64,000 nt of DNA, taken from positions 4,134,086 through 4,198,085 of the forward strand of contig OZ025883.1 in NCBI GenBank assembly GCA_964019415.1, given 5' to 3'. Positions 19,315 to 63,665 of this stretch are shown here, one piece after another. A program made the translations under genes and the position numbers. Source of the DNA: Ianthella basta (Eukaryota > Porifera > Demospongiae > Verongiida > Ianthellidae). Within the stretch, counting starts at the first letter, position 1. Every line of letters starts with the position of its first letter. The notes under the pieces are model-generated. The model made no database searches, was not told where the DNA came from, and saw nothing but the letters and a program-made list of their open reading frames with translations.

Positions 19315-22300
19315 GTGAGCAAGTACAATGTTTAAAGTGGTTATCTCGATGAAATCAAACGTGTGACTGACCGTCATCCCAGCACTGCCACCGGACCTGA
19401 CAGCTACCCAGGCCGTCTGTGATATTAGCTAGCGGTTGACCTAACTTGATATGAGGGTAGACTGTTCTAAAGGTACAGTCATTCAAGTTTATCGCACTAA
19501 CCAAGAGGTTCTCGGTTATTCGTTTCGGTAGCTGGTCGGCTACTTTCATCACGGTCATTCTGTTTTTAACATGATCAGAGGATTCATCTTGGTCAGAGCG
19601 GCCCTCGCAGTCATGTACACCGCACCAGAGCGAAGCAGTGCTCCTAGAGTATAGGCACCCAAAACAACACGTTCTGATCTTAACTATGCCAGCGCATTCC
19701 CGCGTTGTATAACGTGGTATGTGCTAGGGTTAGAGGAGACGACAGTGAGTGGGCGGTAAAGGTGTCCCAATGGGTTCGCCATTCACCATCTCATCAACTG
19801 TGCGAGGTCTAGAATCCATCTAAGTAAAGTAACGAAGTAAAGGACTAAGGACGATTTGGTTGTATTGACTATGTAGCCTACACTGTGATAGTTTACATTG
19901 CACCTCTCCAATGCACTCACCTGCAGTAGCCCAGTTGGCTAGCCACACTGGTGAATGGGATAGACAGATTCCGCTGTATTATGCTTTTCATGTTCTTAAA
20001 TGAATATTCAGACAGTTGTGTGTGTGGTATGATAGTCAGCTGATTGGTATGACTTTCGTAAGCAAATGCCAGAGCTACTTACACCTGTGTTGAATGTGTT
20101 TCTTGTGTGTCCACTCGTTCTACAGTTAACTGTAGTTGCATGTTATTGCTGCATCCTGTTCCAACTTTGGTTGGTTTCATGTCATAACAATCGTGTCCAC
20201 AAGTTGTAGTGAGATACAACAACCAACTGTCACTTGCACAAGAGCGCAACCTTTGACCTCTTGACCATGTGTCCAGCTGTGCACTGTATGGTGCTACCTG
20301 AATTGGGTTGCTGCATCCCACTCCAACTTGTACCATGTTGGTCTACATCCTCAAGCTCTTCATCTTGTGCTAGTGGTGTTCTTCTACCAGCAACTAACAC
20401 ATACTCCACTTCACCCGTGGTGGTCCTTTCCTTCTGTACTTCAACAGGTGTCAGTTACTGCTACATATCCCTGCTTCCTTTCACAGGCACTGATGTGCAG
20501 TACCTAGATAGGTGTACATAGTACACACATAGATTGTGTTCTGATGTTGTGTATAATTGGAAAACCCATTCATATATATGCAAGACAATACCCACCCCAC
20601 ATTCCCCATTCCATTCCTGTCATTCATGGTGTTGCAAGTCCCATTGTATAATTCTCTGTCTTTTGTTGCTAATGTGTGATTGGCCTCCTTGTTCCTCCTC
20701 TCTTCTCTCCCCCAGTTCTTGCTGAGTTGCACCAGGGTAGTCTCATCACAAGTGACGAGTGTAAGGGACTGTCTACTGTCTGGAAGGTGCGTAATGTACT
20801 ACGAGTCAAAACTCCTACCATCAAGTCCAGAAGTGCTGAGATTCTGCTAAAGCATGGATATCAGGAAGTATCTGCATTCCTTTCAGGTAAACACCTGTAC
20901 AGTATTCCTCAGCTGTTCTCCTGTGTTGGTTAATGCAGTGGACCTACATACATACGTAGTTGTCTAGTCCACTTCCAGACATCACCCCACACTCATCATG
21001 TATGGAGCCGCTGTGTGTCCACAGTCACATCTCAGTCCCCACACTGTCGTATTGACATAATACATATAGTGTCTGAGCATATGAGTGTGTTTGTGTTGCT
21101 GCATTAGTGCTTGCTGGTGTGTGAATCAGTGATGAGAGTGTATCAGTAGGTAGAGGTGGGTGTATTGGTAGGAAAAGGTGTGTGTGTTGGTAGGTGTGGA
21201 GGGGTGTTTAGGTATAATTAGATGGGTGTGGGGTACTTGAGCTAAGTGTAAAAATATTGCCTTGGAATCTTTCACTATAATTGCGGGCACTGTTTCTTCG
21301 CGATAGTATATAGTCCATGAATTGCACAACGCAGTGACTTCCAGCCAGTTTGTAGAGACAACTTGCCTGACCCCATTGGATCACTCTGCTCAACTATCCC
21401 GAAACATGCTGTTACTGAAGCCACCCTTGGTGGCTGTCTTGCAGTCGCTGAAGAAAAGGAGCAGTTATGGGTGGTTCAATGGAAAGACGGTTGTGTCTTC
21501 TCTCCCCTCACTTAACACAGTCGCCCTGGAATATCTACAGTTCTACCAGCTCTTTGGTGAAATTTCTTACCCACAAAATGTTTTCCATTTCCAGTATCTA
21601 TTGATCATATTTCATGTGGCAGCAGCTTGTGTCAGGGGATGGTTGTCCATAAACTGGCTTTCTAGCCACACACATATGCATCACTTTGAGAGGGTGTTGT
21701 GTTCGGGTGATGGGACATAATTGTGGGTTGATTCATATATTATTATACATATGTGGCAGTCGAGGTTAGAAATAGAAAATGTGTGGCATTTGTACTCTGT
21801 AGCCTATATCAAGAGGTCATTGGTGTGTGTTGTTTTGTAGACCTGAATGCCTTTAATAGGAGATCTAGAGGAAGTGGGTGATGAGATGTCTGTGATTGAC
21901 TGTTGAGTACACCCCTCACCTCACTCCACCCAATGTCACAGTGGGTATGACATAAAATGGAAGGGTTGGGTGTGCTTGCATATCTTTTGTTTTTACGTTA
22001 CTCTTGTCATGTGTTTCAAGTGGCAGAGACTGCGTAGTATAACATGGTACATATGTACTAGGTTAGAGGAGATGACGGTGATTGGGCAGTAAATGTTATT
22101 CACCATTTCATCAACTGTGTGTGGCTCTCCAGAATTCATCTAAGTAAACTAAGTAACAAAGTAAAGGGCTAGTTTGCATAATGTCAAAACTTGTATTTTG
22201 TTTGTGTTGATCAGCTTTCAATTGCATGTACACCAGTCATCTAATTTGTCCAGTATTGCTGTAGCACTGCTTAATGTGTTACCATGGATCATCATCAGGA

Positions 22301-25300
22301 AATATGGAAGTAATGTTGGAGTTCTCCAATCTAATTTCTCTAGCCTCCTAATTTTGACAGTCAGTTACGTAGGTCAAGTGATGACTAAACATGAAATTCA
22401 AAGAGCAGTATCTCAGCTTTACACAAAGGGGAGGTAGTGGCAGGACACTTGGCTCTAGAGCCTTTGTCAGCTTCTCATGGAATATTGCTGGAAGCAACCA
22501 ACGCAGCTATGAGCCTCTACCAAATCACTGATGATGTCACATATAACTCGCATGGAATGTTTGTGTTGTAGTACTGGTGTTTGGTTATGTACTGTAGGTG
22601 TGCTTTGTGGGTAGGTGCATGTGGAGGTTTGTGTGTGTGTTGTGTGTTTGCTTATACAAACTCATCTCCAATCAGTGGTAGACATTGTTTAGTACAATCT
22701 TGTGACTGTTGTTGATGTACATAATGATGGCAATGACAGCATCAGACAACATGGTAGTGCTGTCTATGTAGGGATAGCAGTGGTTGTTTGTATGCTATGC
22801 AAACGAAACGTAGTGCTATTACTGTTTAGGACTGAAAACCGGCAAAAGGGCTACCCAAAAGAAAGTATCTGTTGCATACAGTGCAGGACTAACCTTACTT
22901 TCCAGTGAAAGTGCGCTCTCCGGCAGAAAATGACCTTGACATTTTCCACTTTTCATCATCATCTTCGTCTTCTTCTTCTTCTTCTTTGACAGTATTAGTG
23001 CACGAACCATGACGAGTAGACGAAAACCTTTATTACAGTTTAACACGCCCCCTAACTGGCTGTATTCCTTTGGTTAGAAGCCTCTGTGAGCAAGTTTCAC
23101 AAATGAGGGTTTCCGGGCCTTCGAGAAACGTTACTACACAAGAGACACCATTTTATGATGATGTAATTGAACGGTTTTGCTACATTTATTCGCCTAGTCC
23201 TCCTTCAGTTTTTAATTCAATAGCCTAGCAACGTTATTGTATGTCCGATTGGAGGTGCGCACGTGGGTAGCCTCAGCCAAACTTAGCTTGCGTGCCATTT
23301 GAAGGACATTTGCGGTCGTGGATTTACCCACCATTTGTAATTACTGCACGGTTGGCTTCTGTATTCTTTTTTGGCGAGTTAGCACAGAACCTATAGATGC
23401 TAGCCCACACCTTGAGCTCCAGGGTTACAGCAATAAGGCCTAACACTGAACCATTGTTCTATGATTGTGGGTTAGCGTGTAGCTACAGCTTAGTTACACA
23501 CTATGAAAAGTACAGAAACTAGAAATAATACAAATTTACAAAAGGGATAGTAAAAATATACAATAAATTGATAGTAAGGATGTAGGGATGGCCTAAAAAG
23601 TGCAGATAAGTAAATGATGCTACACAGTGAAGCATTAGCAATGGTACCTACATTCAAGGATGGTGCTACATTCTTGCATGTAGGGACCATTGTTTATGCT
23701 TCACTGTGTAGCATCATTTACTTGTTTCTGTACTTAGTATGCCACATCTACATCCTTCAATTTTTGTAAAAACATTTTATTATTTCTGTTTCTGTAAGAG
23801 CTGTGAGGAAACATATAGTTGAATGCAGTCACTTTCAGACGCCATCATTGGATAGAGACTGCTTATGTACCCAACGAATGTCATTAGCAGTTTGTTTCTT
23901 TCCATGCAGTGTAGCTAATTCTTATGTTTGATTGATGTGTTTGATGTGTTAATTTGTGAAATATGATATGCTATTTGTGAAGGTATTTTTCTATAATTAG
24001 TTATACAATAAGTTCATTGTAATAGCTATCATGGACCTTGACTTAACCATCAACGAGTAATGATAAAAGTGTTGTTCTAGTGTAGCACAGTGATTGAATC
24101 ATTGTTTTTTTATATGACTGAAAGCACAGGACAGGTGGTGACGACATTGCAAGTTCAACTGCATGTGTTTGTGTATGTACGTGCATAAGGTTATGTGATG
24201 TTTGTAAAGTCACAAATTGAATTGGGATTAGGGATCTGTATTAAATGTAGTTAAATGCTGGCCATGATGACTGTGAGGAGATACATAGACTACACGGCAC
24301 TTGGACCCTGTAACTCCTAGAGGCATCTCTTGGTCAGTGTGTTACTGTACTAGAGTGAAGATAACTCAGAAAGAACAAGCTAGTTCTTGCATGTGAGAAC
24401 CTGATACACAGGATTAGGTATGTAACCTCTAGTACACATGTGAGCAATAAGGGAAGGTTGATATATATAGTGGGTCTCTGGTGGTGATGTTAGCGTTGTG
24501 GTGAGTGTGTGTGTACAGGGATGATGCAGTGTTTGCTGTGAGCTGCAGTCTCTTATAATGTAATGTACAGTACCTATGGCATACATACATGCATGCATGT
24601 TGTTGATGTGTTAATTTAGGATGCTCACTCTTGCTGTAGGTAGGACATGCATTTCCCCATTCAACTCATGCCATTCCTGTATTCTGGAGTCCCATTGTAT
24701 TCCATATCTTGTGTATGGGCTTGTTTCATTGTCCTCCCTGTCCCTTTTTCCTCTTTCACACAGCTCTTGCTGAGCTACAACAAGCTGGCTTCCTCACTAG
24801 TGATGAGTGCAAGGGTTACTTCATTCATGCGGTTAGTGGAAAGCCTCCTGCAGTGGTGTCCCAAGCCTGTGAGATTCTGATGAGACATGGCTTTGAGACA
24901 GAGTCGAAACTCATTGCAGGTAAGCAGATGTTTTGTAAATTGTCTGTGTTTGGTTGTACATACAATGGAGCCAAGTTATCAATACCATGTTGACATCACC
25001 CCCATGCACTTATCATGTAAAGACTTTGTGTGTCAGTTGTGACATCATGAGCTCCACACTATTGTGGCCACTTTTAGTGTCTGTCTGTTGTTGTATGAGT
25101 GTGTGTCTGTGTAGAATAGGTGATGTGGGTGTGTCGGTTGGTGAGTGCACTTAGGTGTATGGGTAGTTGTTGCTATGTATGTATCAGTATTTTCATGTGG
25201 CAGCAGCTCATGTTGACCTTCAGGGGCTGCTTAGCCATGAACTGGCTTACTGGGCACAAAGCAATCTGACAGATGTCCAATCTACGGAGTACTACATTTC

Positions 25301-30025: not shown

Positions 30026-30199
30026 TTCTTGCTGAGCTACAACAGGCTCACCTTATCACTTATGAAGAGTGTGCAAAGGTGCGATACATTATAGATGTGG
30101 TTGCACTTCAACGCAAGAAGCCTTCAGAAGTTCAAGTTAAAAGTGCTGAGGTTTTCTTCAAACTTGGACTTCAGACAGAGAAGATGAAGGAATTTGCAA
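30026..30199 (+). CDS. Alpha-type helical module exon (unit II)
   Basis: 174 nt, acceptor CTCTCTCCCCCAG, phase 1-1. Reads LAELQQAHLITYEECAKV, then KKPSEVQVKSAEVFFKLGLQ and EFA. The base before the donor is A instead of G (GCAA|GTAAAT), the only variation of this junction in the array; it may weaken splicing. No start exon was found between 27937 and here. Confidence 0.68.
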
Positions 30200-36259: not shown

Positions 36260-36430
36260 CTCTTGCTGAGTTACAACAGGGTAATCTCATCACAAGTGAC
36301 GAGTGTGAGGGACTGTCTACTGTCTGGCAGGTGCGTATTGTACTACGAGTCAAAACTCCTACCATCAAGTCCAGAAGTGCTGAGATTCTGCTGAAGCATG
36401 GATATCAGGAAGATTCTGACTTCCTTTCAG
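36260..36430 (+). CDS. Gamma-type helical module exon (extra, unit III)
   Basis: 171 nt, 57 codons, LAELQQGNLITSDECEGL to SDFLSG, donor GTAAAC. It sits inside the unit landmark: about 125 bp of flanking sequence (CACTGGTGAATGGGATAGAC to TTGTAAGCAAATG) appears once before it and again after it (36447-36580). The exon was thus gained by insertion with a local duplication. Most differences from the 20716 copy are replacement changes (K to E, K to Q, N to I, V to D). Confidence 0.68.
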
Positions 36431-37019: not shown

Positions 37020-37328
37020 TTACATACATTGATACAGTAAGCTTTCTTGCTTTCTCAAAAGTGTATCCTTTAGTAATCCATCATGTCCAATAGCATTGCA
37101 TACATAGTTACCCTCATCTGTGTCGGATATCCCAGGTATAGTGATGAGTTGTCCCCACAATAGGGTACAGTAGATGACTAGATGTGGCTGTACAGCTGGA
37201 TTTTGAGATTGCACTTTTGATTTAGTGTGTTGTTTCCATTTCACTATTTTCAATGAAGTATAGTATTGAAAGTCGCAACTTGAAAGAAAGACAGTCAAGG
37301 AAAGAAAAGTTTCCATCACGCAAGCCAA
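37020..37328 (-). CDS. Ig-like domain, open copy on the minus strand
   Basis: Acceptor GACGGTGTCAG, then SLTVFLSSCDFQYYTS, KIVKWKQ and LITIPGISDTDEGNYVCNAI. The Cys, a Trp 13 residues later, and L.I.GI.D.DEG.YVC about 45 residues after that are the core of an Ig V/I-set domain with normal spacing. Only this copy is open from end to end, because a short stretch present in the others is deleted. No signal peptide, downstream exon or clear donor was found, so it may be a pseudogene that happens to be open. Confidence 0.45.
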   Translation of the reverse strand: MACVMETFLSLTVFLSSCDFQYYTSLKIVKWKQHTKSKVQSQNPAVQPHLVIYCTLLWGQLITIPGISDTDEGNYVCNAIGHDGLLKDTLLRKQESLLYQCM

Positions 37329-37780
37329 CTGACACCGTCAGCTAAATGCTAGCCTCATAGTGACTCTGAGAATTACAGCAGATCACATGCCACTCAGGCC
37401 CTACTCATCTTTGAACTTTCCAAGAGACGTCTCTTGGTCGGAATATATTACACTTTCTATGCAATCTATGTGAACCCAATAGAGAGGAATATGTAGCTTC
37501 TACTGTGTGAACAATGAGGAGAGTCTTAGGTGGTAGTGTGTGCATTGAAGTGATGAGGCTGTGTGTGTTTATACCTGATGACTCTGATATTGTATACATT
37601 ACCTAGATAGATGTATATACATGTATTGTGTGTTGATGTAGTGATTTCCTGGAGCCCACACTCATAAGCAGGACATTCCCCATTCCCAATTCCCTTCCTG
37701 TCATTCCATGTTACTGATCCCATTGTATCCCCTCTAATGTGTGATTGTCCTCCCTGTCCCTTCTCTCCTCTCTCCCCCAG

Positions 37781-37954
37781 TTCTTGCTGAGCTACAACAG
37801 GCTCACCTTATCACTTATGAAGAGTGTGCAAAGGTGCGGCACATTGATGGTGTGGTTGCATTTCAACGCGAGAAGCCTTCAGAAGTTCAAGTTAAAACTG
37901 CTGAGGTTTTCTTCAAACTTGGACTTCAGACAGAGCAGATGAAGGAATTTGCAG
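37781..37954 (+). CDS. Alpha-type helical module exon (unit III)
   Basis: 174 nt, acceptor CTCTCTCCCCCAG, donor GTAAAT. LAELQQAHLITYEECAKVRH, KPSEVQVKTAEVFFKLGLQ, EFAG. It lies 1.35 kb downstream of a gamma exon in the same phase, so both could be included or used alternatively. Confidence 0.72.
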
Positions 37955-40770: not shown

Positions 40771-40926
40771 CTCTTGCTGAGCTACAACAAGCTGGCCTCC
40801 TCACTAGTGATGAGTGCAAGGTTTACATCATTCCTGCGGTTAGTGGAAAGCCTCCTGCAGTGGTGTCCCAAGCCTGTGAAATTCTGATGAGACATGGCTT
40901 TGAGACACAGTCGAAACTCATTGCAG
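40771..40926 (+). CDS. Beta-type helical module exon (unit III)
   Basis: 156 nt, acceptor TCTTTCACACAG, donor GTAAGC. LAELQQAGLLTSDECKVY, KPPAVVSQACEILMRHGFE, KLIAG. Differs from the 24764 copy in the middle (VYIIPAVSG against GYFIHAVSG). Confidence 0.73.
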
Positions 40927-42069
40927 GTAAGCAGATGTTTTGTAAATTGTCTGTGTTTGGTTGTACATACAATGGAGCCAAGTTATCAATACCATGTTGA
41001 CATAACCCTTGTGCACTTATCATGTAAAGACTTTGTGTGTCAGTTGTGACATCATGAGCTCCACACTATTGTGGCCACGTTTAGTGTCTGTCTGTTGTTG
41101 TATGAGTGTGTGTCTGTGTAGAATAGGTGATGTGGGTGTGTCGGTTGGTGAGTGCACTTAGGTGTATGGGTAGTTGTTGCTATGTATGTATCAGTATTTT
41201 CATGTGGCAGCAGCTCATGTTGATCTTTAGGGGCTGCTTAGCCATGAACTGGCTTACTGGGCACAAAGCAATCTGACAGATGTCCAATCTACGGTGTACT
41301 ACTTTCCTTATTGTTTGTATTAATTAACATTCCATTGTCTGTACAACACTGTGTGCCCACTGTGACATACTGTACTGATCGGTTGTGTTAAGTGCACCCT
41401 CTTTATAAGAGCATTTCCTTTATTGAGTACCCAATTTATTACCAGTGTTTCACCCTGATTGTTTAGGTGTCTATTGATTTTGGGGCTTCATCCCTTCTTT
41501 GAGGTGCATATAGGACTCCCTGGTAGACTAGCAGCTTGGCTGAAGTGTAATCATACAGTGCAAACTAGTACAAACCTTGTTTGGTTGGTTGTCCACACTG
41601 GGCACCAGGTACCAGAGTCGAAATCATGGTATTATACATAAACATGAGCAGTATTGCTGTATACAATCTCTAGCTCACAATCTATGTCTATACTAGATTT
41701 GCAATTATACTGTAAGTATGTGCATAAATTGGTATAATATTGTGCAAGCGCTTACTGGATACCAGTTTGCGGTATTGACAAGCAATTAAAAAAGGTCTGT
41801 AACATAGCGCTAAATGGAAACCCGTTCACTGCTAAGCGGCAGCCATCTTACTGTGACATTTGCATATCATTATAATTTGTTGATGCTTTCGACATGTTCG
41901 GTTAAGCGCATATCCTTTATTACTGTAAATGCATACTTCTATCCTTCAGAGCTATAAGCACACAATTATGCTTTACAACAGATTAGTGCGGTATTTAATT
42001 CCACACCATTGTGTTTACACAAACGTATAAAGTATGATAATGTGGTAGAGGCTCATGCTACGTTGTCAT

Positions 42070-42302
42070 GGAACTTATTTATACATACTTTATACAGGTT
42101 TATGAGGCGTTGATGAGCATTCACGTAGCTAAAAAGGAAAGTTCAAGTAAAACGTTTCGACCATGAGGGTCTTCATCAGTTAAAAAACGACGTTTTGGTA
42201 TGCCCTCGTGGTCGAAACGGTTTACTTGAACTTTCCTTTTTAGCTACGTGAATGCTCATCAACGCCTCATAAACCTGTATAAAGTATGTATAAATAAGTT
42301 CC
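42070..42302. mobile_element. 233-bp foldback with hammerhead-like core
   Basis: Two arms of about 100 bp (42070-42169 and 42203-42302) are nearly perfect inverted repeats. It is inserted at a site that is empty in sister units (26020 and 56900, CATCTGCTACTGCATC). The outermost sequence CTTTATACAGGTTTATGAGG pairs with its partner at the far end. The roughly 33-bp centre and inner arm hold a ribozyme-like motif on the minus strand. Confidence 0.88.
42149..42196 (-). ncRNA. Hammerhead-ribozyme-like motif (probably degenerate)
   Basis: Minus strand, 5' to 3': AAAACGU-C, a short U-rich loop, CUGAUGA, GACC-CUCAU-GGUC, GAAA, CGUUUU. CUGAUGA and GAAA are the invariant hammerhead core; GACC/GGUC forms stem II; AAAACGU pairs with ACGUUUU (A15.1-U16.1 included) as stem III; C follows as the expected cleavage nucleotide. 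Weak points: one unpaired A at the base of stem II and almost no stem I. Hammerheads of this kind are known in Penelope-like elements and retrozymes. Confidence 0.45.
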
Positions 42303-44145
42303 ATCTGCTACTGCATCAGTGTGTGTATGGTATGAGTAGGTGTGTCAGTTAGTGGGTGGCGGTGTATGCTTATGCGTTGCAATGTGTATCAGTATTTTCA
42401 CGTGGCTGCAGCAGAGTGAATGCTTAGCCAAGAATTGGCTTGCTGGCCACAAATATTGGAAACTAACAGAGTGTGTTGAGTTGGGTGGCTGGCAGAGCAA
42501 TTTAATCTGTTAACTGTACTAGTGCTCTGCCTGTGGAGGTACATCTCCCATTAGTTATACTACGAGAGCATTGTAATGGTCTAAGGAAGACCTAGCTAGT
42601 CTTACAGTATCCTGCAGTGTGTGTTTGGTGTTTCTTGTGTAGCACAGTGATTGAAATTTAGGCATCACTAAAGCAGGGTAGGAGAGCAGATAATGGATGT
42701 GGCCTTCACTTCTTCATAGCCAAAAACAGTGGGTAGGTGTTAACTGTTTTATTTAGATGAAATCAAAAGCTGTCATGGTTACTGGAAGATGGCTTTATCT
42801 GCATGTATTGCAAGGATCCATTGTAGCCTTTGTTTGGTGCAAAAATGGCATTTAGCAATAATTTACTTAAACTTTTTACTGTCACAGATTAGCATTGTAA
42901 TTGTTATATGTCACTGCACTGCACAGGCCTACTATCATTGTCTCTGAGGAAGTAGACCACATATAGGTATGAGTCGGACACTGCTCCTTGAGCTACATGA
43001 TCTAAGACTGAATAGAGGCACTGCTTTGTAGCGCTTACTGCACAATGGATGAGTCTTTCAATTGAAAGAGTACACACGGTATATAATCCACAATGTCCAA
43101 TGTTGTTGCATGGTTACCTTCCTCTTTGTCAGGCTATCCTGACTATGGTGAACAGATGTACCCACATAACTCATAAACAGCAGTCTCACAATACTGGCAT
43201 GTGGGTAGGTGTGACTGTGTTGGTGGTTGTGGCAGTGTGAGTTGGTGTGGTTGTGTGGGTAGGAGTGACTGTGTAGAGATTGTGCATCCATAGTCTGAGA
43301 TTGTATACTTTTTGAACTAGTGCGTCGTTGCATTAATTTTGTGTGCATTGTCTGTTTGCATGCATGTATGAGTGTTTGTGTGCTTGTTCCTTTCTGTTGT
43401 AGTATTATGTTGCCTAGTTGTATGCAGCCACTTTGAGACACTATCATTGGATAGAGACTACTTACATACCAACTGTGTCTGTTGGTTTCTTCTGTATTTT
43501 AATGCTTGAAGCTAATGTACAGTAATACAGGTACTGACAGAAATGAAAGTTTTGACCAAATTGGCAATTCTTCGAGCTAATGTAATACGGCAACGACCAT
43601 CTATACAATGATTTCATCTGTTGACCCATTTCTCAAAGTTAAAAATCTAATTTTGTTTACTTCATGTGGCAGCAGCTTGTGTCAGAGGCTGGTTGTCAAA
43701 ATGGCACTGGGTGGACTGCGCCATTCATCCGGCAACGTGTGGCGGAGCAAGCGCAGCATGCAGAAGGCAGTGCTTGCTCATATATATATTGCCTGCACGA
43801 ATATACACCTTTACCATTATATACTTGTGCCATGAAATCAGTGTAAATAGACCTCGTCATATCCAGTAGTGTGTAATGATATAATGGTGTTCTGGTTTAG
43901 TGCAGTGCTTGAATTAATGAGTTCTTAAGTGTGACTAAAAGCACATGACAGATGGTCAGAATTGGGACTTAGTCCTCCACGTACCTCTCCACGCGCTGCC
44001 ATTTAGTTGGCATAGTCTCTCTGTGAAGGGGATCTTGGTGTTCCTACCAAGTTTTAACAGCAAGCAGTAGGTGCCCACTTGGAGATCCACCATCACACAC
44101 TTCTCTTTCACTGATCTTGTGCTAATGTAATTTTGTCTTTCTCAG

Positions 44146-45256: not shown

Positions 45257-45589
45257 TAGTGGGATACAGCAACCAACTGTCACTTGCACAAGAGTACAAC
45301 CTTTGACCTCTTGACCATGTGTCCAGCTGTGCACTGTATGGTGCTACCTGAATTGGGTTGCTGCATCCCACTCCAACTTGTACCATGTTGGTCTCCATCC
45401 TCAAGCTCTTCATCTTATGCTAGTGGTTTTCTTCTACCTTCAACTAACACTCACTCCATTTTCACCCGTGGTGGCGGTCCTTACCTTCTAAACTTCAAAA
45501 TACCCTTGTTTTCCTGTACCAATGTGCAGGTTTGGTTGTATTACAAACGTACATAGATAAGCTTTCTTGCTTTCTCAAAAGTGTACCCT

Positions 45590-46337: not shown

Positions 46338-46511
46338 TTCTTGCTGAGCTACAACAGGCTCACCTTATCACTCATGAAGAGTGTGCAAAGGTGCGGCACA
46401 TTGATGGTGTGGTTGCACTTCAACGCAAGAAGCCTTCAGAAGTTCAAGTTAAAAGTGCTGAGGTTTTCTTCAAACATGGACTTCAGACAGAGGAGGCAAA
46501 GCTTTTTGCAG
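46338..46511 (+). CDS. Alpha-type helical module exon (unit IV)
   Basis: 174 nt, acceptor CTCTCTTCCCCAG, donor GTAAAT. LAELQQAHLITHEECAKVRH, KSAEVFFKHGLQTEEAKLFAG. Here KHG replaces KLG, as in beta, gamma and delta. No beta exon follows; block C begins 1.3 kb downstream. A degraded last-exon relic (acceptor TTTTCACCAG then FPFG and a stop) lies at 47056. Confidence 0.68.
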
Positions 46512-47930
46512 GTAAATGGATACACAGCATATCTTCAGCTGCTTTATGTTTTTAGTTGTACATACAGCGCTGCCAAGTTGTCATGGCCATCTCCCCAGGC
46601 ATCACGCCACACTTATCATGTAGAGCCTTTGTGTGTCCACAGTGACATCTTGAGTGCCACGCTACAGTTTGCTTACATAATTATGTAGACTTTCACAAAC
46701 TAGCAAATTGGTGTTGTGCTGTGGTGGTGACATAAGTGTGGGCTGAGTTGTATGTTGCTAGTGAAATGAAGTACTCTAGAATTGCACTTTACAATTACCT
46801 TTGCAGTGAGATCAATGTAAACTAGTTGTCAACATATCCAGTAGGTAAACTGAGTGTATTCAACCTTTGAAGTCTTATATAACTAACAGAACAGGCCAGA
46901 CGGTCAGAATTAGGACTTGGTCCTTCATCTCCCCAAAGCCAACATTTAGTTGACATTATCTCTCCCTGAAAGCAGTAGGCGCCCAGCTGGAGACCCATCA
47001 TCATATGCCTCTCTCCCACTGATTGTCTATTAACATTATTCTATCTTTTCACCAGCCTTCCCCTTTGGCTGAATCAATATTTCTCATTTCACCAGTGTAG
47101 TTGTTTACTCAATGCTTATATAATACATGTATAGTGACAGAAATGTGACAAGATTGCATGGCCAAGTCGCAATCTTGAACCTAGCACAAACAGTGGTAAA
47201 CACTGTTTTAATGGTTACTTCTGTTGGTCAAATCGTCTGTACCTGATAGCTACCCAGATTGTCTGTGATATTAGCTAGCAGATGGCCTAACTTGGTATGA
47301 GGGTAGATTGTTCTAAAGGTACAGTCATTCAAGTTTATCGCACTAACCAAGAGGTTCTCAATTATTCGTTTCGGTAGCTGGTCAGTAGATGACTTTGATA
47401 AGCAATTGCCAGAACTACTTACACCTGTGTCTAATGTGTTTCTTGTGTGTCCACTTGTCCTACAGTTAACTGTAGTTGCATGTTGTTGCTGCATCCTGTT
47501 CCAACTTAGGTTGGTTTCATGTCATAACAATTGTGCCCACAAGATGTAGTGAGATACAGCAACTAACTGTCACTTGCACAAGAGCGCAACCTTTGACCTC
47601 TTGACCATGTGTCCAGCTATGCACTGTATGGTGCTACCTGAATTAGGTTGCTGCATCCCACTCAACTTGTACCATGCTCATTCTCAAGCTCTTCATCTTA
47701 TGACTATCTATCTAAGCTAAAATCTTAATCGATGATGTCAGTTTGTGAAAATGGAGGGGAGGAAGCGGTCTGGCTACGTGAGTCTAGTGGCCATCTAGGT
47801 GAGATTGTCTAGCTTGTGGTACATGGCCCAATCACCTTTAACATGTTTCCTCCGAGCCTGAAAGTGACTACCACGCAGGCAACCAAAATTCACTCTAACA
47901 GATGCCTTCTTACTCCTGTTGTTATCTCAC

Positions 47931-48147
47931 CAGTATCATGGCCTTCCTTTGTCCTTGGTATGCTTTCCTCACAGTTTCCCAAGACAGTGTTCATATCTCT
48001 GTTGGTGCACAGGAGATCCCCAACGACAAACCTTCCGTCAGATAATTTAACTCGTAGCCGCTTGTTTAGGAAGCCTCGCAGGGTCTCTCGCTCATGATCG
48101 GTCACGACATCTTTGTCAGCCATTTTATTATGTTGCACAACTGACAT
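47931..48147 (-). CDS. NAA38: NAA38/LSMD1-like exon, second copy
   Basis: Same length and borders as 72-288, donor GTGAGA. Changes include LRVKLSDG for LRVELSDG and CTNRDMNTVL for CTDRDMNIVL. The Asp-to-Asn change is in the conserved TDRD motif, which suggests relaxed constraint. After the donor an acceptor CACTTTCAG at about 47856 leads only to a short frame (SEETC, stop) in the right phase, so the second half of the Sm domain seems missing. Possibly a pseudogene. Confidence 0.65.
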
Positions 48148-48728
48148 GCATGGGCGCACACAAAGCGAGTGTGCACAACAAGCTGTTTTCTCAGAGACAA
48201 ATTTAAAGCTCAAATAGCCGAAGGTATTTTGGAGAATGCAGGTGCACATTGGCACCACTGATAGGACTAATGTGCCAAGGATCATGATGTGTCTGGGAGT
48301 GGACAGCAAGCCAGACCAAGTTCTACGTGTGTAGCTAGCTAGCTGGCTAGCTATGATGTTTATTTGTAAGAGTTGTGTACCATGTGACTAGCTATATCTC
48401 TTAGAAAATAGTGTCTATTGAAAACATTAGGAATTAGCATCTTGAGAAGTTGCCTTCTATCTAGCTAGCTAACTTTGTGTTGACTAAAAACAAAACCACC
48501 CCATCAAAATTTGTCAGTATTGCAAAAAAGTGAGGGAAGAATTACCAGAGGGCCTACATGGTCATAATGGCATTGGGCATTGGGTGATGTGTGAAACAGA
48601 ATTTCTGTATTGGTTTGCACTGTGGAATATAGTTGACCAATACAGCACCATGTATGGCAAGGTACAAACCTTCATTCACGTATTCACGTGAAAAATAGGT
48701 TGAGCATGCAAGAGGACCCCACTTGCAC

Positions 48729-48732
<4 letters not shown>

Positions 48733-50755: not shown

Positions 50756-50795
50756 TCCACCCCTTTGATCTGTACAGCGCATTGAACCCTTGGGA

Positions 50796-50823: not shown

Positions 50824-53800
50824 GTGAGCAAGTACAATGTTTAAAAAGTTACCGAATCTCGATGATTTCGAATGTGTGACTGACCATCATCCCAGCACTG
50901 CCACCGGACCTGACAGCTACCCAGGCCCTCTGTGATATTAGCGGTTGACCTAACTTAGTACGAGGGTAGATTGTTCTAAAGGTACAATCATTCAAGTTTA
51001 TCGCACTAACCAAGAGGTTCTCAGTTATTCGTTTCGGTAGCTGGTCAGCTACTTTCATCACGGTCATTCTGTTTTTCACATGATCAGAGCATATACGTCT
51101 TGGTCAGAGCGGCCCTCGCAGTCATGTACTCCCCATCAGAGTGAAGCAGTGCTACTTAGAGTACGGGCATCCAAAACAACACGTTCTGATCTTAACTATG
51201 CCAGCGCATTCCCGCGTTGTATAACGTGATACGTACTAGGTTAGAGGAGACGATGGTGAGTGGGCGGTAAATGTGTCCCAATAGGTTCGCCATTCACCGT
51301 CTCATCAACTGTGCAAGGTTCTCTAGAATTCATCTAAGTAAAGTAACGAAGTAAAGGACTAAGGACGATTTGGTTATATTGACTATGTAGCCTACACTGT
51401 GATACCGTATTCGCTCTAAAAATTCGTCACCCCTAGTGCAGCGAAAATTTCGTCTTTTGAGGCAATTAGAGCTGGAATGGAGAAGACCGTCGAAGGTGAC
51501 GAATATTTAGAGTTTTCGGACGAAACATTAGAGCGCAGGCGAAACATTAGAGAGCTTTTCAGTTTGGGCGTTCCTTGCTGAAATGGCCGCTTTCACGTTG
51601 ACCGTGCGAGGCTACCATCCAAACGAGAAGGATCTGGGACGATTCGCGATCGCTGAACTCCATTGTCGCACCAAAAGGAAAATGAACGACGTACACAGCG
51701 TCGAGAAAGCTTATAGACGAACGGAACAATGCCAGAAGGACAAAGACAACAACGAGCGTTGTTGGCTTTGCTCCTAGGCTTTGTTCCTTGGCCGCCGCAG
51801 CCATATTGCAGGCATTTCCGGCGAATATTTAGAACACCTCCAGTTCATGACGAAAATTAGAGGCCAATGGCGGAAATTAGAGAGACAGGAAATTCGTCAC
51901 CATTAGAGTACACCTGAGCATATATTTTTCCCCTGACGAAAATTAGAATGACGAATTTTTAGAGCGGATACGGTAGTTTGCACTGCACCTCTCCAATGCA
52001 CTCACCTGCAGTGGCCCAGTTGGCTTGTCACACTGGTGAATGGGATAGACAGATTCTGCTGTATTATGAATATTCAGACAGATGTGTGTGTGTGTGTGGT
52101 AGGATAGTCAGCTGATTGGTATGACTTTTGTAAGCAAATTCCAGAGCTACTGCATTGAATGTACTTCTTGTGCGTCCACTTGTCCTACAGTTAACTGTAG
52201 TTGCATGTTGTTGCTGCATCCTGTTCCTACTTTGGCTGGTTTCATGTCATAACAATCGTGCCCACAAGTTGTAGTGAGATACAGCAACCAACTGTCACTT
52301 GCACAAGAGCACAACCTTTGACCTCTTGACCATGTGTCCAGCTGTGCACTGTATGGTGCTACCTGAACTGGGTTGCTGCATCCCACTCCAACTTGTACCA
52401 TGTTGGTCTACATCCTCAAGCTCTTCATCTTGTGCTAGTGGTGTTCTTCTACCTTTAACTAACACTCACTCCATTTTCACCTGTGGTGGTGGTCCTTACC
52501 TTCTAAACTTCATAATACTCTTGTTTTCCTGTACCAATGTGCAGGTTTGGTTGTATTACATACATACATGGATAAGCTTTCTTGCTTTCTCAAAAGTGTA
52601 CCCTCTAGTAATCCATCATGTCCAATAGCATTGCATACATAGTTACCCTCATCTGTGTCGGATATCCCAGGTATAGTGATGAGTTGTCCCCACAATAGGG
52701 TACAGTAGATGACTAGATGTGGCTGTGCAAGTGGTTGTGTGTGTAGGAGCGACTGTATAGAGATTGTACAGCTGGAGTTTGAGATTGCACTTTTGATTTA
52801 GTGTGTTGTTTCCATTTTACTATTTTCAATGAAGTATAGTATTGAAAGTCACGACTTGAAGTGAAAGACAGTCAAGGAAAGGAAAGTTTCCATCACACAA
52901 GCCGACTGACACCGTCAGCTAAATGCTAGCCTCATAGTGACTCTGAGAATTTCAGCAGATCACATGCCACTCAGGCCCTACTCATCTTTGAGCTTTCCAA
53001 GAGACGTCTCTTGGTCGGAGTACATTACACTTTCTATGTAATCTATGTGAACCCAATAGAGAGGAATATGTAGCTTCTACTGTGTGAACAATGAGGAGAG
53101 TCTCAGGTGGTAGTGTGTGCATTGAAGTGATGAGGCTGTGTGTGTTCTGAGCTGCTGACTGATATTGTATACATTACCTAGATAGATGTATGTACATACA
53201 TTGTGTGTTTATGTAGTGATTTCCTGGAGCCCACACTCATAAGCAGGACATTCCCCATTCCCAATTCCCTTCCTGTCATTCCTTGTTACCGATCCCATTG
53301 TATCCCCTCTAATGTGTGATTGTCCTCCCTGTCCCTTCTCTCCTCTCTCCCCCAGTTCTTGCTGAGCTACAACAGGCTCATCTTATCACTTATGAAGAGT
53401 GTGAAGATGTGTATGACATTCGTGATGTGGTTGCACTTCAGCGCAAGAAACCTTCAGAAGTTCAAGTTAAAAGTGCTGAGGTTTTCTTCAAACTTGGACT
53501 TCAGACAGAGAAGACGAAGGAATTTGCAGGTAAATGGATACACAGCATATCCTCAGCTGCTTTATGTGTTTAGTTGTACATACAGCGCAGCCAAGTTGTC
53601 ATGGCCATCTCCCTGGGCATCACTCCACACTTATCATGTAGAGCCTTTGTGTGTCCACAGTGACATCTTGAGTGCCACGCTACAGTTTGCTTACATAATT
53701 ATGTAGACTTTCATAAATCTAGCAGATTGGTGTTGTGGTGTGGTAGTGACATAAGTGTGGGCTGAGTTGTATGTTGCTATTGAAATGAAGTACAGAATTA

Positions 53801-56800
53801 CATTTTACTATTATGTACCTTTGCAGTGAGACAATGTAAACTAGGTGTCAACAGAACTAGTAGGGAACTGAGTGTACTCAACTGTTGAGGTCTTATGTAA
53901 CTGACAGCACAGAACAGATGGTCAGAAATAGGACTTGATCCTTCACCTCCACAAAGCTGTATTGAACCTAGCACAAACAGTATTAAACACTATTTTAACG
54001 GTTACCTCTGTTGGCCAAATTGCCAATTCTAGAGTCGGACTCCCCAACCTCAAAACGAAATTAGGGTGAATTAACTACTGGTGATAAGTTCCACTAGATC
54101 TCATTGTGCTATTGTCTAGCTGCTACCCTATTATCTGATATTGATGTGCCCTCACCAAGTTTGACACATCTAAGGTGTTCCATGAACTCTATGTTCTAAT
54201 ACTTGTAGCTATACTGTTGTAATGAATAGGAATTTCTCCACACAAGCAATAGTCTTTAAAGGTGCTCTTTACTGGTGAACAGGATGCTTTGGACAGTAAT
54301 TTATAATCTATCAATATCTATTATAACTGATTGTGCAAGCAATGGTGTCTAGTACATCATTTCATTGTGACTGTTGTTGATGTAGTGATTACTGTTTCTG
54401 TAAGAGTTGTGAAGTAGCCTAGTTGTATGTAGCTACTTTAAGACACCATCATTGGATAGAGACCACTTACATACCAACTGTGTCCATTTGTTGTTTGTGT
54501 AGCTATTGTAACACAGGTGCTGACAGAAATGTAAAATGTTTTGGCTGGATCACAATTCTTTGAGCTAACTGCAATGACCACCATGGCCAGTTTCGTCTGT
54601 TGGCCAACTTCTCAATTCCAGAGACTCCAATTTCATTCTTTCTGTATCCACTTGAAATGATATTAAAATTAGAGCAAACTGGTAGTGCAAGACTGGTATA
54701 ATCCAAAGTGCTGCTAAGTCTCTAGCTATTGTTAAAGAATGTCCCAATCCTAAATAAAAGCTGTTAGTTATAGTACTGGCTGCCTCCATGGACCATTGAC
54801 TCCCTAAAGGCCTGGCACAGTGTAGCAAGTATTCCACATACAGCCAGCTGTACATCCCTTTCAGCTCCAAAGGAACAGCTTGAATTTGTACTTCACTATG
54901 TTCTGGTATACAAACATACAAGCACATTTACGTATATTTAATATACTGTAAGGCATATTGTAGGTAAGTATAACAATATTGTGTATATACAGTGTGGAAG
55001 AGTCCATCGTACATGTGAGGTAGTTGTAGCTACCATCCCTTTGATCACTACTGCCGATTCAATCCTCGCCGCAGTGTATATGATTATGTGATGTTTTTGA
55101 AGTCACAACTTGGATTGGGATTTGGGATCTACATTTAGTTAAATGTTGGCCTATCGATGACTATGATGAGATTGACTACAAGGCACCCTGGCCCTGTAAT
55201 CTAAATCCTAGAGGCATCTCTTGGTCAACGTTTCACTGTACTGAAGTGAAGGTGATCAAAAAGAACAAGCTATATAGTTCTTTCCTGTAAAACTGGATAC
55301 ACAGGATTATGTAGCCTCTAGTACACATGTGAGCAAAATGGGAAGGTTGGTATAGTGGGTCTCAGGTGGTAAGGTGCATTGTAGTAATGGTGTGTGTATG
55401 GTGATGAGGCAGTGTTTGCTGCGAGCTGCAGTCTCGTTATGTACAATGAGTACCTATGGCATATGTGTATTGATGATGTGTTTATTTGGAATGCATACTC
55501 ATACTGTAAGTAAGACATGCATGCCCCCTCCAAACTTCATGTCATTCTTGTATTGTGTCCCATTGTATTCCATGTCTTGTGTATGCTAATATTTGATCAC
55601 CCTCCCTGTCCTTTTTCCTCTATCGCACAGCTGTTGTTGAGCTACAACAAGCTGGCCTCCTCACTAGTGATGAGTGCAAGGGTAACTTCATTCATGCGGT
55701 TAGTGGAAAGCCTCCTGCAGTGGTGTCCCAAGCCTGTGAGATTATGATGAAACATGGCTGTGAGACACAGTCGAAACTCATTGCAGGTAAGCAGATGTTT
55801 TGTAAATTGTCTGTGTTTGGTTGTACATAAAATGGAGCCAAGTTATCGATACCATGTTGACATCACCCCTATGCACTTATCATGTAAAGACTTTGTGTGT
55901 CAGTTGTGACATCATGAGCTCCACACTATTGTGGCCACTTTTAGTGTCTGTCTGTTGTTGTATGAGTGTGTGTCTGTGTAGAATAGGTGATGTGGGTGTG
56001 TCGGTTGGTGAGTGCACTTAGGTGTATGGGTAGTTGTTGCTATGTATGTATCAGTATTTTCATGTGGCAGCAGCTCATGTTGACCTTCAGGGGCTGCTTA
56101 GCCATGAACTGGCTTACTGGGCACAAAGCAATCTGACAGATGTCCAATCTACGGTGTACTACTTTTCTTATTGTTTGTGTTAATCATCATTCCATTGTCT
56201 GCACAACACTGTGTGCCCGCTGTGACATACTGTACTGATCGGTTGTGTTAAGTGCACCCTCTTTATAAGAGCGTTTCCTTTATTGAGCACCCAATCCCTT
56301 ACCAGTTTTTCACCCTGATTGTTAGGTGTCTAGTGATTTTGGGGATCCATCCCTTCTTTGAGGTGCATATAGGACTCCCTGGTAGACTAGCAGCTTGGCT
56401 GAAGTGTAATCATGAAGTGCAAACTAGTACAAACCTTGTCTGGTTGGTTGTCCACACTGGGCACCAGGTACCAGAGTCGAAATCATGGTATTATACATAA
56501 ACATGAGCAGTATTGCTGTATACAATCTCTAGCTCACAATCTATGTCATTACTAGATTTTGCAATTATACTGTAAGTATGTGCATGAATTCGTATAATAT
56601 CGTGCAAGCGCTTACAGGATACCAGTTAGCTATGTGGACAAGCGATTCAAAAAAGGTCTGTAACATAGCGCTAAATGGAAACTCATTCACTGCACTAAGC
56701 GGTGGCCATCTTACTGTGACATTTGCATATCATTATAATTTGTTGATGCTTTTAGCATGTTCGGTTAAGCGCATATCCTTTATTATTGTAGATGCATATT

Positions 56801-59814: not shown

Positions 59815-60100
59815 AGCATTGCATACATAGTTGTTACCCTCATCTGTGTCGGATATCCCAGGTATAGTGAATTGTCCCCACAATAGGGTACAGTAGATGA
59901 CTAGATGTGGCTGTGCAAGTGGTTGTGTGTGTAGGAGCGACTGTATAGAGATTGTACAGCTGGAGTTTGAGATTGCACTTTTGATTTAGTGTGTTGTTTC
60001 CATTTCACTATTTTCAATGAAGTATAGTATTGAAAGTCGCAACTTGAAAGAAAGACAGTCAAGGAAAGAAAAGTTTCCATCACACAAGCTAACTGACACC
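59815..60100 (-). pseudogene. Ig-like domain relic, 60 kb copy
   Basis: SLTVFLSSCDFQYY and KIVKWKQ are open at 59901-60083; the DTDEGNYV half is interrupted by a small insertion (TTG) and loss of a few bases near GTGAATTG. Confidence 0.5.
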
Positions 60101-60543
60101 GTCAGCTAAATGCTAGCCTCATAGTGACTCTGAGAATTACAGCAGATTACATGCCACTCAGGCCCTACTCATCTTTCAGCTTTCCAAGAGACGTCTCTTG
60201 GTCGGAATACATTACACTTTCTATGTAATCTATGTGAACCCAATAGAGAGGAATATGTAGCTTCTACTGTGTGAACAATGAGGAGAGTCTCAGGTGGTAG
60301 TGTGTGCATTGAAGTGATGAGGCTGTGTGTGTTCTGAGCTGCTGACTCTGATATTGTATACATTACCTAGATAGATGTATGTACATGCATTGTGTGTTTA
60401 TGTAGTGATTTCCTGGAGCCCACTCTCATAAGCAGGACATTCCCATTCCCAATTCCCTTTCTATCATTTCTAGTTACTGATCCCATTGTATCCCCTCTAA
60501 TGTGTGATTGTCCTCCTTGCTCCTCCTCTCTTCTCTCCCCCAG

Positions 60544-60732
60544 TTCTTGCTGAGTTACAACAGGGTAATCTCATCACTAATGAAGAGTGTGAGGATTTGG
60601 GCAGTAGTGATGAGGAAGACATTGATGGTGTGGTTGCACTTCAACACAATAAGCCTTCAGATGTTCAAGTTAAAAGTGCTGAGGTTTTCTTCAAACATGG
60701 ACTTCAGACAGAGAAGACAAAGCTTTTTGCAG
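60544..60732 (+). CDS. Chimeric gamma/alpha helical module exon
   Basis: 189 nt, the longest module. The acceptor tract and first 40 nt (GAGTTACAACAGGGTAATCT) match the gamma exon at 36260; from DIDGVVALQ onward it is alpha. The join carries an acidic insert (GSSDEEDI), about five codons, in frame. Likely a gene-conversion product. Confidence 0.7.
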
Positions 60733-61589
60733 GTAAATGGGTACACAGCATATCTTCAGCTGCTTTATGTGTTTAGTTGTACATACAGCACAGCCAAGTT
60801 GTCATGGCCATCTCCCCAGGCATCACTCCACACTTATCGTGTAGAGCCTTTGTGTGTCCACAGTGACATCTTGAGTGCCACGCTACAGTTTGCTTACATA
60901 ATTATGTAGACTTTCATAAATCAAGCAGATTGGTGTGGTGGTGACATAAGTGTGGGCGGAGTTGTATATTGCTAATCAAATGAAATACTCTAGAATTACA
61001 GTTTACAATTACCTTTGCAGTGAGATCAATGTAAACTATGTGTCAACATAACCAGTAGGTAAACTGAGTGCATGCAACTGTTGAGGTCTTGTAGCTAATG
61101 TAACACAGAGTTTTGGTTGGATCGCAATTCTTCGAGCTAGCAAAAATGGTAGTGGTCATCATTTTAATTGTTTCTTCTGTTAGCCAACTTCTGAATTCCA
61201 AAGACTTCAGTTTCATTCTTTCTGCGTCTACTTAGGGTGAAATGATATAATTAGATCAAACAAGTACAAGACTGGTATTAAGTGCTGCTAAATTCTCTAG
61301 CTATGCATAACTGACGAATGTCCTAATACTAAAGCTGTTAGCCATGTTGCCATGTAGGACTTCTTGCATTCATCAGACTGTAGCACCGTTTGTGTACAAT
61401 ACGTGGATATGTATGTGCGGGTATGCATGTGTGCGCACGTGTCCAATGGATGTGTGTCTGATACTGTATATGATGTGTTTCCATAATTGGCTAGTACCTG
61501 TATCATCACTATTTTTGGTATCCATGTCCCACTCTAGAACGACTCTAGGACTACTTGCATTAGTCAGATGCTACAACGCCATTTGTGTG

Positions 61590-61631
61590 CATTCGCGTGT
61601 GTGTGTGTGCGTGTGCGTGTGTGTGCGAGTG

Positions 61632-61714
<83 letters not shown>
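61590..61714. repeat. (GT)n microsatellite
   Basis: Long GT run with CGTG interruptions at its left end. Confidence 0.95.
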
Positions 61715-61715
<1 letters not shown>

Positions 61716-62169
61716 AGCTGAATTGTTTGACCTTTTGAGCAACTTGACACCTGTGTCTAATGTACTTCTTGTGTGTCCGCTTGTCCTACAGTTAACTGTA
61801 GTTGCATGTTGTTGCTGCATCCTGTTTCTACTTTGGTTGGTTTCATGCCATAACAATTGTGCCCACAAGATGTAGCAAGATACAGCAACCAACTGTCACT
61901 TGCACAAGAGCACAACCTTTGACCTCTTGACCATGTGTCCAGCTGTGCACTGTATGGTGATACCTCAATTGGGTTGCTGCATCCCACTCCAACTTGTACC
62001 ATGTTGGTCTACATCCTCAAGTTTTGTGTTTTGTGCTAGTGGTGTACTTCTGCCAGCAGCTAACATACGATCCGCTTCCACTCATGTTGGCGGTACTTAC
62101 CTTATAGACTTCAAAATACCCACGTTTTCCTATACCAATGTGCAGATTTGGTTGTATGACGTACATGGA

Positions 62170-62400
62170 TAAGCTTTCTTGCTTCCTCGAAAGTGTGCCT
62201 TCCTGTAATCCATCAAGTCCAATAACATTACGTACATAGTTACCCTCATCTTTGTCAGATATCATGGTGATGAGTTGTCCCCACAATAGGGTACAGTAGA
62301 TGACTAGATGTGGCTGTGTGGGTGGTTATGTGTGTAGGAGCGACTGTGTAGAGACTGTACAGCTGGAGTTTGAGATTGCACTTTTGATTTAGTGTGTTGT
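62170..62400 (-). pseudogene. Ig-like domain relic, 62 kb copy (most decayed)
   Basis: LITMISDKDEGNYVRNVIG: the second Ig cysteine is replaced by Arg and part of the preceding strand is deleted. It lies next to an extra partial unit (61750-62400). Confidence 0.5.
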
Positions 62401-63494
62401 TGCATTTGTGTGCAGTGTCTGTTTGCATGCATGTTTGTGTGCTTGTTCCCTATTGTACCCCTTCTATCAAAAGTTTTTTTTATAACTGATTATGTAAGCA
62501 GTGGTGTCTGGTACATCATTTCATTATGACTGTTGTTGATGTAGTGATTACACTAACACTGTTCATGTAGGAGCTGTGAAGTCGCCTAATTGTATGCAGT
62601 CACTGCATTTCTTGTGTGTCCACTTGTCCTACAATTAGCCCTAGTTGTATTTTGTTGCTACATCCTGCTACAATTGGGCTGGTTCATGTAATTACAGCTG
62701 CACACACATGTTGTGAACTAGTTTGCAAATGTTTGTCACAACTACCATTTAGCTCACAGCTCAACTCTAAACTGTGAACGAGGGCGCTGACCTCACTTGT
62801 GCCACAAGGAGGGGCCATAAGCAGGGGACCTAAACCATCACTGTATTCTAAGACTAGCTAGCGTACTTAATGTGAAGCAGAATTTCAGAGGTGATCATGA
62901 ACCGTGAGTGGAATAATATTCACCTCAACTACATATTTTCAAAAATTTCTAATAGGATAAAGCAGGCAACTTTCACTTGCATGAAAGCTGCACTTTCTCC
63001 TCTGATCGTGTCCAACTTGTAGCCGTGTTGGTATTGACCCTCTGCAACTTGTGCTAGTGGTGCTCTGCATTGTACACACAAGTTGTAGACTAGGACACAA
63101 CAACCAAACATCACTTGCACAAGAGCACCACCATCACCTACCATCAACTAGTACGCACACTCCACTTCCACCTGTGTTGGTTCTTACCTTCTGCAACTTG
63201 CACAGGTTCACAAGTCTTTCTGATTTCACAGATAGTGATTTACTGCACCAAGATACATACAGTAGGTGTACATTCATTCATAGATTTTGCATTGATGTTG
63301 TGATTATTGGAATTCACACTAAGACGCAGGACATCCCCCATTACCTGTTCCTTGTTCCCCATTCCTCATCACTTCTCCATCTCCATTCCTTTTCCCCATT
63401 CCCTTCATGTCACTCCTAATTTTGGGGGACCCAGTGTTTTCTGTATCTTGTGTATGCTGATGTGTGATTGTGCTCCCTGTCCGTTCTCTCCCAG

Positions 63495-63665
63495 TTCTTG
63501 TTGAAGTACAACAAGCTAACCTGGTCACTGCTGAAGAGCGTGAAAGGCTTTGGAACTGTGATAACCTGGCCATACTATTGAGTGGCAAATCTCCTGACAT
63601 GGTGGCACAATCGAATGAGATTTTAATAAAGCATGGATTTGAGGAAATGTCAAAATTCCTTGCAG
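63495..63665 (+). CDS. Delta-type helical module exon
   Basis: 171 nt, acceptor CGTTCTCTCCCAG, donor GTAAAC, phase 1-1. LVEVQQANLVTAEERERL, SGKSPDMVAQSNEILIKHGF, KFLAG. The Cys of the EEC motif is Arg here. Most diverged member, yet frame, phase and the KHG motif are intact. The gene it belongs to would continue past the right edge. Confidence 0.7.

Follow-up and report, generated by a model that had tools for sequence, protein, structure and literature searches.

The window analysed here is the whole 64,000-nucleotide stretch at positions 4,134,086-4,198,085 of contig C16 (OZ025883.1) from the sponge Ianthella basta, in an assembly of 209 Mb and 96 contigs. It carries eleven short plus-strand exons encoding copies of one small module, and these belong to a much longer run of module exons on the same contig, beyond which lies an exon resembling the Roc/COR GTPase region of ROCO proteins. 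The original prediction of eleven GT-AG-bordered exons entering and leaving in phase 1 was confirmed: all eleven begin at the predicted base, with AG directly before and GT directly after, and hold an open frame with phase 1 entry and phase 1 exit. Their lengths (in order 171, 156, 174, 171, 174, 156, 174, 174, 156, 189 and 171 nucleotides, nt) vary by multiples of three only, as had been claimed. A six-frame profile scan of the window gave eleven module matches and no twelfth (independent E-value < 0.05). The exons, with the sequence types to which they belong, are the following:

20716..20886, plus strand, module exon of type alpha: 171 nt, phase 1-1, AG/GT borders, open frame, profile match
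24764..24919, plus strand, module exon of type gamma: 156 nt, AG/GT borders, open frame, profile match
30026..30199, plus strand, module exon of type beta: 174 nt, final exon base A instead of G
36260..36430, plus strand, module exon of type alpha: 171 nt, AG/GT borders, open frame, profile match
37781..37954, plus strand, module exon of type beta: 174 nt, AG/GT borders, open frame, profile match
40771..40926, plus strand, module exon of type gamma: 156 nt, AG/GT borders, open frame, profile match
46338..46511, plus strand, module exon of type beta: 174 nt, used for the second structure model
53356..53529, plus strand, module exon of type beta: 174 nt, AG/GT borders, open frame, profile match
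55631..55786, plus strand, module exon of type gamma: 156 nt, AG/GT borders, open frame, profile match
60544..60732, plus strand, module exon of type beta: 189 nt, alpha-like start, middle 15 nt longer
63495..63665, plus strand, module exon of type delta: 171 nt, used for the first structure model

The introns flanking these exons are repeated too, so the window is a tandemly duplicated stretch whose exons are not independent events; they arose via duplication of multi-kilobase segments. Conservation was assessed in a 66-row alignment of 29 C16 modules and 37 modules from arrays on other contigs, a set that differs from the 66 C16 exons described below, and L5, L10, K32 and 'G58' are conserved in at least 90% of its rows. 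The shared motif is as given in the original prediction, with one correction: the final G of FAG or FLSG is not a residue of the module; it is the splice-donor codon read through (exon base G plus GT) and is absent from the spliced protein. After splicing, the last exon base G joins TT or CT of the next exon, and the resulting V or A is the first residue of the following module; a 171-nt exon therefore encodes a 57-residue module.

The original prediction recognised no named family in the module, and the sequence searches support this. Single modules gave no family match in Pfam or the PDB, and a PDB search with the 66-row profile returned one match only (E 1.4). When the 66 alignment members were searched singly, 13 Pfam families appeared, none above its cut-off among the matches shown: UBA_ARI1 in 5 of 66 members (best E 0.0069) and the other 12 families in one member each (SHOCT at 0.086). 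These matches are taken to reflect chance or a shared short helical motif. CARD, Death, DED and PYD gave no match at E <= 1 among the 66 modules, in a search whose HMMER filters drop most matches above 0.1, and TPR, checked by Pfam only, gave no match to the module. A leucine-rich repeat (LRR) identity was rejected on the grounds that the structural models are all-helical.

Structural models were generated with AlphaFold2 from an input alignment of the eleven window modules only. Five helices are predicted for both the delta module at 63495 (predicted local distance difference test, pLDDT, 92.3; predicted template modelling score, pTM, 0.75) and the beta module at 46338 (pLDDT 90.6, pTM 0.73), bearing out the helical nature first suggested. 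The faint likeness to CARD and other death folds noted at that stage fits the Foldseek neighbours, all at E > 1. In the case of the delta model, 10 of the 21 listed entries are the MAVS CARD, the Apaf-1 CARD and designs on an Apaf-1 template (presumably 1cy5), the FADD/caspase-8 DED and the ASC PYD; one of these ten (5gpp, ASC PYD, a 461-residue chain) may align outside its PYD, and the other 11 entries are catalases and other unrelated folds. For the beta model, the Apaf-1 CARD or a design based on it accounts for 2 of 5 entries. The TMq value is 0.57-0.70 for the Apaf-1 CARD entries and the designs on that template. The models thus suggest a module that is CARD-like at the level of the fold only and not a CARD.

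The module frame is open throughout the C16 run: stop codons occur in none of the 66 C16 modules, while a neutral simulation placed a stop in a mean of 16.75 of 54 sequences and none of its 2000 runs was stop-free. Within types, the pooled Nei-Gojobori ratio of nonsynonymous to synonymous substitution (dN/dS) is 1.43 for alpha, 1.11 for beta, 0.90 for gamma, 1.19 for delta, 0.76 for eta, 1.35 for epsilon and 1.96 for zeta; the same pairwise count in introns gave a nonsynonymous to synonymous difference ratio (pN/pS) of 0.68-1.01. A custom codon model divided the module into residues 2-15, 16-31 and 32 onward and used 54 of the 66 sequences, leaving out the 189-nt exon, two gamma exons with a GTTAAG donor and identical coding sequences. 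The dN/dS of the three regions (omega) was 0.94, 3.54 and 1.24 (log-likelihood -3501.7, versus -3544.3 for one omega). With intron-only trees and the most diverged alpha also dropped (53 sequences), the values were 0.89, 3.14 and 1.06; fixing the middle at an omega of 1 costs 65.7 in twice the log-likelihood, and fixing both ends at 1 costs nothing. Omega in residues 16-31 exceeds both ends and exceeds 1 in all seven types. Residues 16-31 are under diversifying selection, and the module ends outside them show no excess constraint within types. The most variable residues are 17, 18, 20, 24 and 27, and their neighbours 19, 22 and 25 are mostly conserved hydrophobics (gamma and delta are exceptions at position 22), a pattern of variability suggesting that the variable residues are exposed. 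Between types, synonymous differences (pS) exceed nonsynonymous ones (pN) in the N-terminal part (0.49 versus 0.22) and in the C-terminal part (0.53 versus 0.38). The coding constraint proposed earlier shows in the missing stops and in the between-type differences; within types, diversifying selection on the middle means that constraint alone does not describe the signal.

The run to which the window exons belong was defined by four protein searches with different modules, each scoring the best 150 of 227-282 candidates, so that module counts are lower bounds. At least 66 module exons lie on C16 between 4,002,584 and 4,495,698 (~493 kb), all on the plus strand, and the window exons are numbers 18-28 of this run. 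AG and GT stand at the same place and the frame is open in all 66 (11 in the window and 55 further exons read), two gamma exons having the donor GTTAAG, and C16 exon lengths differ only by multiples of three. With phase 1 at both ends of each exon, the frame survives any gain, loss or joining of modules, whatever their number. Seven types are distinguished by sequence: alpha, beta, gamma, delta, eta, epsilon and zeta (A, B, G, D, H, E, Z). Their order is A G A A E Z / A G B G B D H E Z Z Z / A G B A B G B B G B D (the window exons) H E Z Z in the first three blocks and A A G B G D H E Z Z Z / A A A B G B D H E Z Z / A A B G G B D H E Z Z in the last three; this string has 65 letters for 66 exons, one gamma exon of the fifth block being missing from it. 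The blocks are separated by five gaps of 31-47 kb between module matches, and one 17 kb gap lies within the fifth block. The eleven-exon array of the original prediction is therefore real, but it is one section of a longer run, of at least 66 exons, whose terminal Roc/COR-like exon lies outside the window.

The module family occupies more than 150 places in the genome, and splice borders were checked and found present in 104. In the other arrays, AG and GT stand at the predicted borders of 38 of 42 modules (35 of 171 nt and 3 of 177 nt), and one expected border is absent in the remaining four. An isolated module at C2:6703403-6703576, minus strand, is 76% identical to the window delta type and has one internal TAG; it is a probable stray copy. 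Contigs C52 and C75 hold module positions that mirror each other, their sums constant at 91160, so a single piece related to the array appears to be represented twice, as reverse complements.

The exon beyond the run was found with a Roc-like query that gave, among the best 133 of 246 candidates, 113 places at E <= 1e-10 and 20 below 1e-100, of which the exon at C16 4,502,545, plus strand, is the sole C16 member. Its acceptor lies ~6 kb past the last module and is entered in phase 1, which allows an in-frame junction with any module. Pfam finds Roc (E 2e-3, residues 260-294) and COR-B (E 0.067, residues 757-876) in this exon in the expected order, both below cut-off, and Roc in the corresponding end exon on contig C20 (E 4e-4, also below cut-off). 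The consensus of seven Roc-like exons holds GPPRxGKT, DTGGQ and VGTHLD, which we take to be GTPase/Roc motifs; the first and second are ~180 residues apart, and this spacing may explain the weak Roc scores. Death-like and Roc-like exons are very numerous genome-wide, with 383 and 670 candidates for two Death-like queries and 246 for Roc.

Sister loci give the end exon its context. On contig C21 the order is CH domains, a Death-like exon, 11 modules, a second Death-like exon and a single large Roc/COR-like exon; on C20 it is CH, modules and a Roc-like exon; and at 9.50 Mb on C6 it is Death-like, modules and a Roc-like exon. The upstream CH exons of C21 match Pfam CH at 2.9e-8 and 2.7e-27 and have C20 homologues that are 57-59% identical, the second Death-like exon reaches Pfam Death at E 0.11 (below cut-off), and a homologue of the first lies ahead of the modules at C6 9.50 Mb. 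The modules before the Roc exon number two on C10, two and three on C4 (the C4 and C10 counts coming from stretches that are possibly incomplete), six and seven at C6 9.5 Mb, 11 on C20, 11 on C21 and at least 66 on C16. Meanwhile, the region at C6 0.55-0.89 Mb has at least 67 module places in alternation with 11 Death-like exons, and the best 133 of 246 Roc candidates include no close one in this region, so Roc-less module genes probably exist. Directly past the last module found in that region is a 393-residue open reading frame (ORF; L031 942-2120, plus strand) with an AG border and phase 1 entry; it has no Pfam match and is a possible alternative C-terminal exon. A RecQ-helicase-like ORF, recognised by eye, lies between the C20 CH exons and the first modules (L019 ~5062-5418, minus strand).

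Several other features lie in or near the C16 run. Just upstream of the first C16 module found are hAT-like transposase ORFs (by eye; L030 6729-8963, minus strand). In the gap preceding the first window module is a NIDO-domain gene (window 8052-8792, minus strand; Pfam 3.5e-22 for 8052-8435) with four close relatives elsewhere, 73-85% identical, three of them at C16 3.90-3.93 Mb, one of which has a TAG; the idea that this gene forms part of each repeat block was dropped because only one copy lies inside the C16 run. Two very similar minus-strand LSM-type ORFs (by eye) occur at window 40-306 (Pfam LSM 8.3e-10) and 47893-48387, the second within the module array. An inverted repeat resembling a miniature inverted-repeat transposable element lies at window 42068-42169 / 42203-42304, with 102-nt arms that are 98% complementary and spaced by 33 nt. 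On the minus strand, opposite the modules, a repeated Ig-like fragment is present at window 37023-37337 (Pfam Ig_3 E 0.069, below cut-off), with similar ORFs near 45498, 52513, 59722 and 62020. Elsewhere in the assembly, the cox1 gene of contig C96 contains 12 TGA codons in frame, and six sites that we take to be conserved Arg sites carry AGA, a pattern that fits a non-bilaterian animal mitochondrial code. Gene content and the resemblance of cox1 also suggest a sponge.

Together, these features make it probable, though well short of certain, that the eleven exons are coding exons, compatible in frame, within a giant locus that ends in a Roc/COR-like (ROCO-type) GTPase exon, that each encodes a CARD-like five-helix bundle, and that the modules serve recognition. 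On this reading, the most likely one, the exons specify hypervariable CARD-like modules strung together for recognition, with a ROCO-type GTPase as the readout; recognition, splicing and ligand are the inferred parts of the proposal. Each exon would supply one complete small bundle, the modules would be spliced into one protein with the GTPase and would pack as a string of helical bundles. The variable residues, which run from the end of helix 2 through the turn into helix 3, would bind a changing target, which may be a microbe, a symbiont or the cells of another individual, and binding would be read out through the GTPase and, in the sister genes, also through the Death-like and CH domains.

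A number of observations weigh against this proposal. The first exon of the C16 locus was not found: a CH query had no match on C16, and two Death-like queries (best 150 of 383 and 150 of 670 candidates) had none at C16 4.0-4.5 Mb. The Roc, COR and Death assignments are all under Pfam cut-offs, and neither the first Death-like exon nor the Roc-like exon of C21 has a Pfam match at E <= 1. A PDB profile search with the seven Roc/COR-like exons gave only a weak Roco match (3dpu, E 0.35), outranked by chance-looking haemagglutinin matches (E 0.05-0.32), and Foldseek found no significant PDB match for either module model, every E-value being above 1. As for selection, the alpha middle omega alone is 1.07, zeta has a high value in its first region as well (3.56), the region limits were chosen once the variable middle had been seen, and gene conversion between copies, which the codon model leaves out, is possible. 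Finally, the blocks could be separate units, since they are parted by gaps of 31-47 kb between module matches, one of them holding the minus-strand NIDO gene.

Separate units are the basis of an alternative that we regard as unlikely but substantial: each ~80-100 kb module block would be its own transcription unit or a truncated duplicate, and only the last block, which neighbours the Roc exon, would be a full gene, with the window exons in a shorter GTPase-less protein. The repeating type order (A..G/B..D-H-E-Z-Z) with blocks 31-47 kb apart agrees with this, as does the C6 0.55-0.89 Mb region, where Roc-less genes are probable. On the other hand, no Death-like (best 150 of 383 and 150 of 670), CH or close Roc exon (best 133 of 246) was found at the C16 block borders, leaving the inner blocks without recognisable ends, and the modules are equally intact in the inner blocks and in the last one. 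A more ambitious form of the proposed GTPase locus, which we hold to be rather doubtful, treats C16 as a single splicing-competent array of at least 66 interchangeable hypervariable modules ahead of one GTPase exon, in which alternative splicing would yield different module strings, an intracellular Dscam-like repertoire for microbes or non-self in an early-branching animal, which would have arisen independently of brown algal LRR-ROCO proteins and with a new CARD-like repeat. Dscam, an extracellular Ig receptor, uses its exons in a mutually exclusive way; C16 shares with it tandem homologous frame-compatible exons, whereas nothing at C16 indicates exclusive exon use.

The modules might also serve as a structural scaffold: an extended rod of helical bundles that binds no changing ligand. 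The amino-acid differences would then reflect relaxed constraint between young copies. Within-type omega near 1 in the N- and C-terminal parts would suit such a rod, but the middle omega of 3.1-3.5, the zeta codons that differ at amino-acid-changing positions between invariant codons, and the lack of stops in all 66 C16 modules make it improbable. A dead array spread by segmental duplication was rejected as very improbable: introns are as similar as exons, whole segments repeat, pooled dN/dS is near 1 (0.76-1.96) and the isolated C2 module has a TAG, but against this stand stops in 0 of 66 C16 modules versus 16.75 of 54 expected, splice sites kept in 66 of 66, C16 exon lengths that change by multiples of three only, and the between-type excess of pS (0.49) over pN (0.22) in the N-terminal part. 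Least credible of all is a transposable element ORF, also rejected, for which the many copies and the hAT-like transposase ORFs near the array start could be cited; the copies nevertheless stand in order within arrays and share their splice borders, and the sister arrays are flanked by CH, Death-like and Roc-like exons. The original prediction had named a transposon-ORF match as refuting, and the Pfam search of the 66 modules does not support one, no transposon family being among its 13 weak families.

The closest published system found is the LRR-ROCO family of the brown algae Ectocarpus and Saccharina: in the accessible text of PMC11378527, each 23-residue LRR lies on its own symmetric 72-bp phase 2 exon, diversifying selection acts on a few concave-face residues, alternative splicing is reported and the proteins are proposed immune receptors. 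By analogy, the C16 locus would follow the same logic with a different, helical repeat. Shared with the algal genes are one repeat per symmetric exon of near-fixed length (66 of 66 on C16 and 38 of 42 in other arrays), a repeat array ahead of a ROCO-type GTPase (here a putative one, its Roc and COR matches being below Pfam cut-offs) and diversifying selection on few residues (here 16-31, omega 3.1-3.5). The differences are that the organism is an animal and that its repeat, present in at least 66 copies in a single run, forms a predicted helical bundle of 57 residues, encoded by a phase 1 exon of 171 nt.

Death folds comprise about 90 residues and six helices. Such folds are among the nearest Foldseek neighbours of both models (the Apaf-1 CARD for both, the MAVS CARD and the FADD DED for delta), but the module differs in having 57 residues and five predicted helices, in its tandem arrangement of one per exon and in the absence of any significant sequence or structure score. 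Moreover, DAPK1 is an animal ROCO protein with a Death domain; the loci described here, like it and like placozoan ROCOs, would bring death-fold modules together with Roc-COR. Placozoan ROCOs combine CARD and death domains in the accessible text of PMC11378527, which describes no exon array with dozens of hypervariable modules like the one here; the ~180 residues between the first two GTPase motifs are a further difference. In Amphimedon, the accessible part of PMC8195603 reports large Death-like/TRADD-N expansions whose unit is Death-like plus TRADD-N with variable C-termini; these are likewise lineage-specific Death-like expansions in a sessile non-bilaterian animal, and the module of this array is not described in that part. 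The accessible part of PMC12909245, on NLRs of the sponge Dysidea avara, has nothing on this module. Within open-access PMC titles and abstract openings (subscription journals and preprints lying outside this scope), neither the module nor an animal ROCO exon array was described among the matches listed.

Early animals, sponges among them, recognise microbes and non-self, with receptors that are known only in part. The family described here is a molecular candidate on that side, joining a helical module that is new to a GTPase-like exon at its end, with a defined stretch of the module under strong diversifying selection. It is an apparent case of convergence with brown algae, and it also contributes a small death-fold-like repeat unmatched by Pfam.

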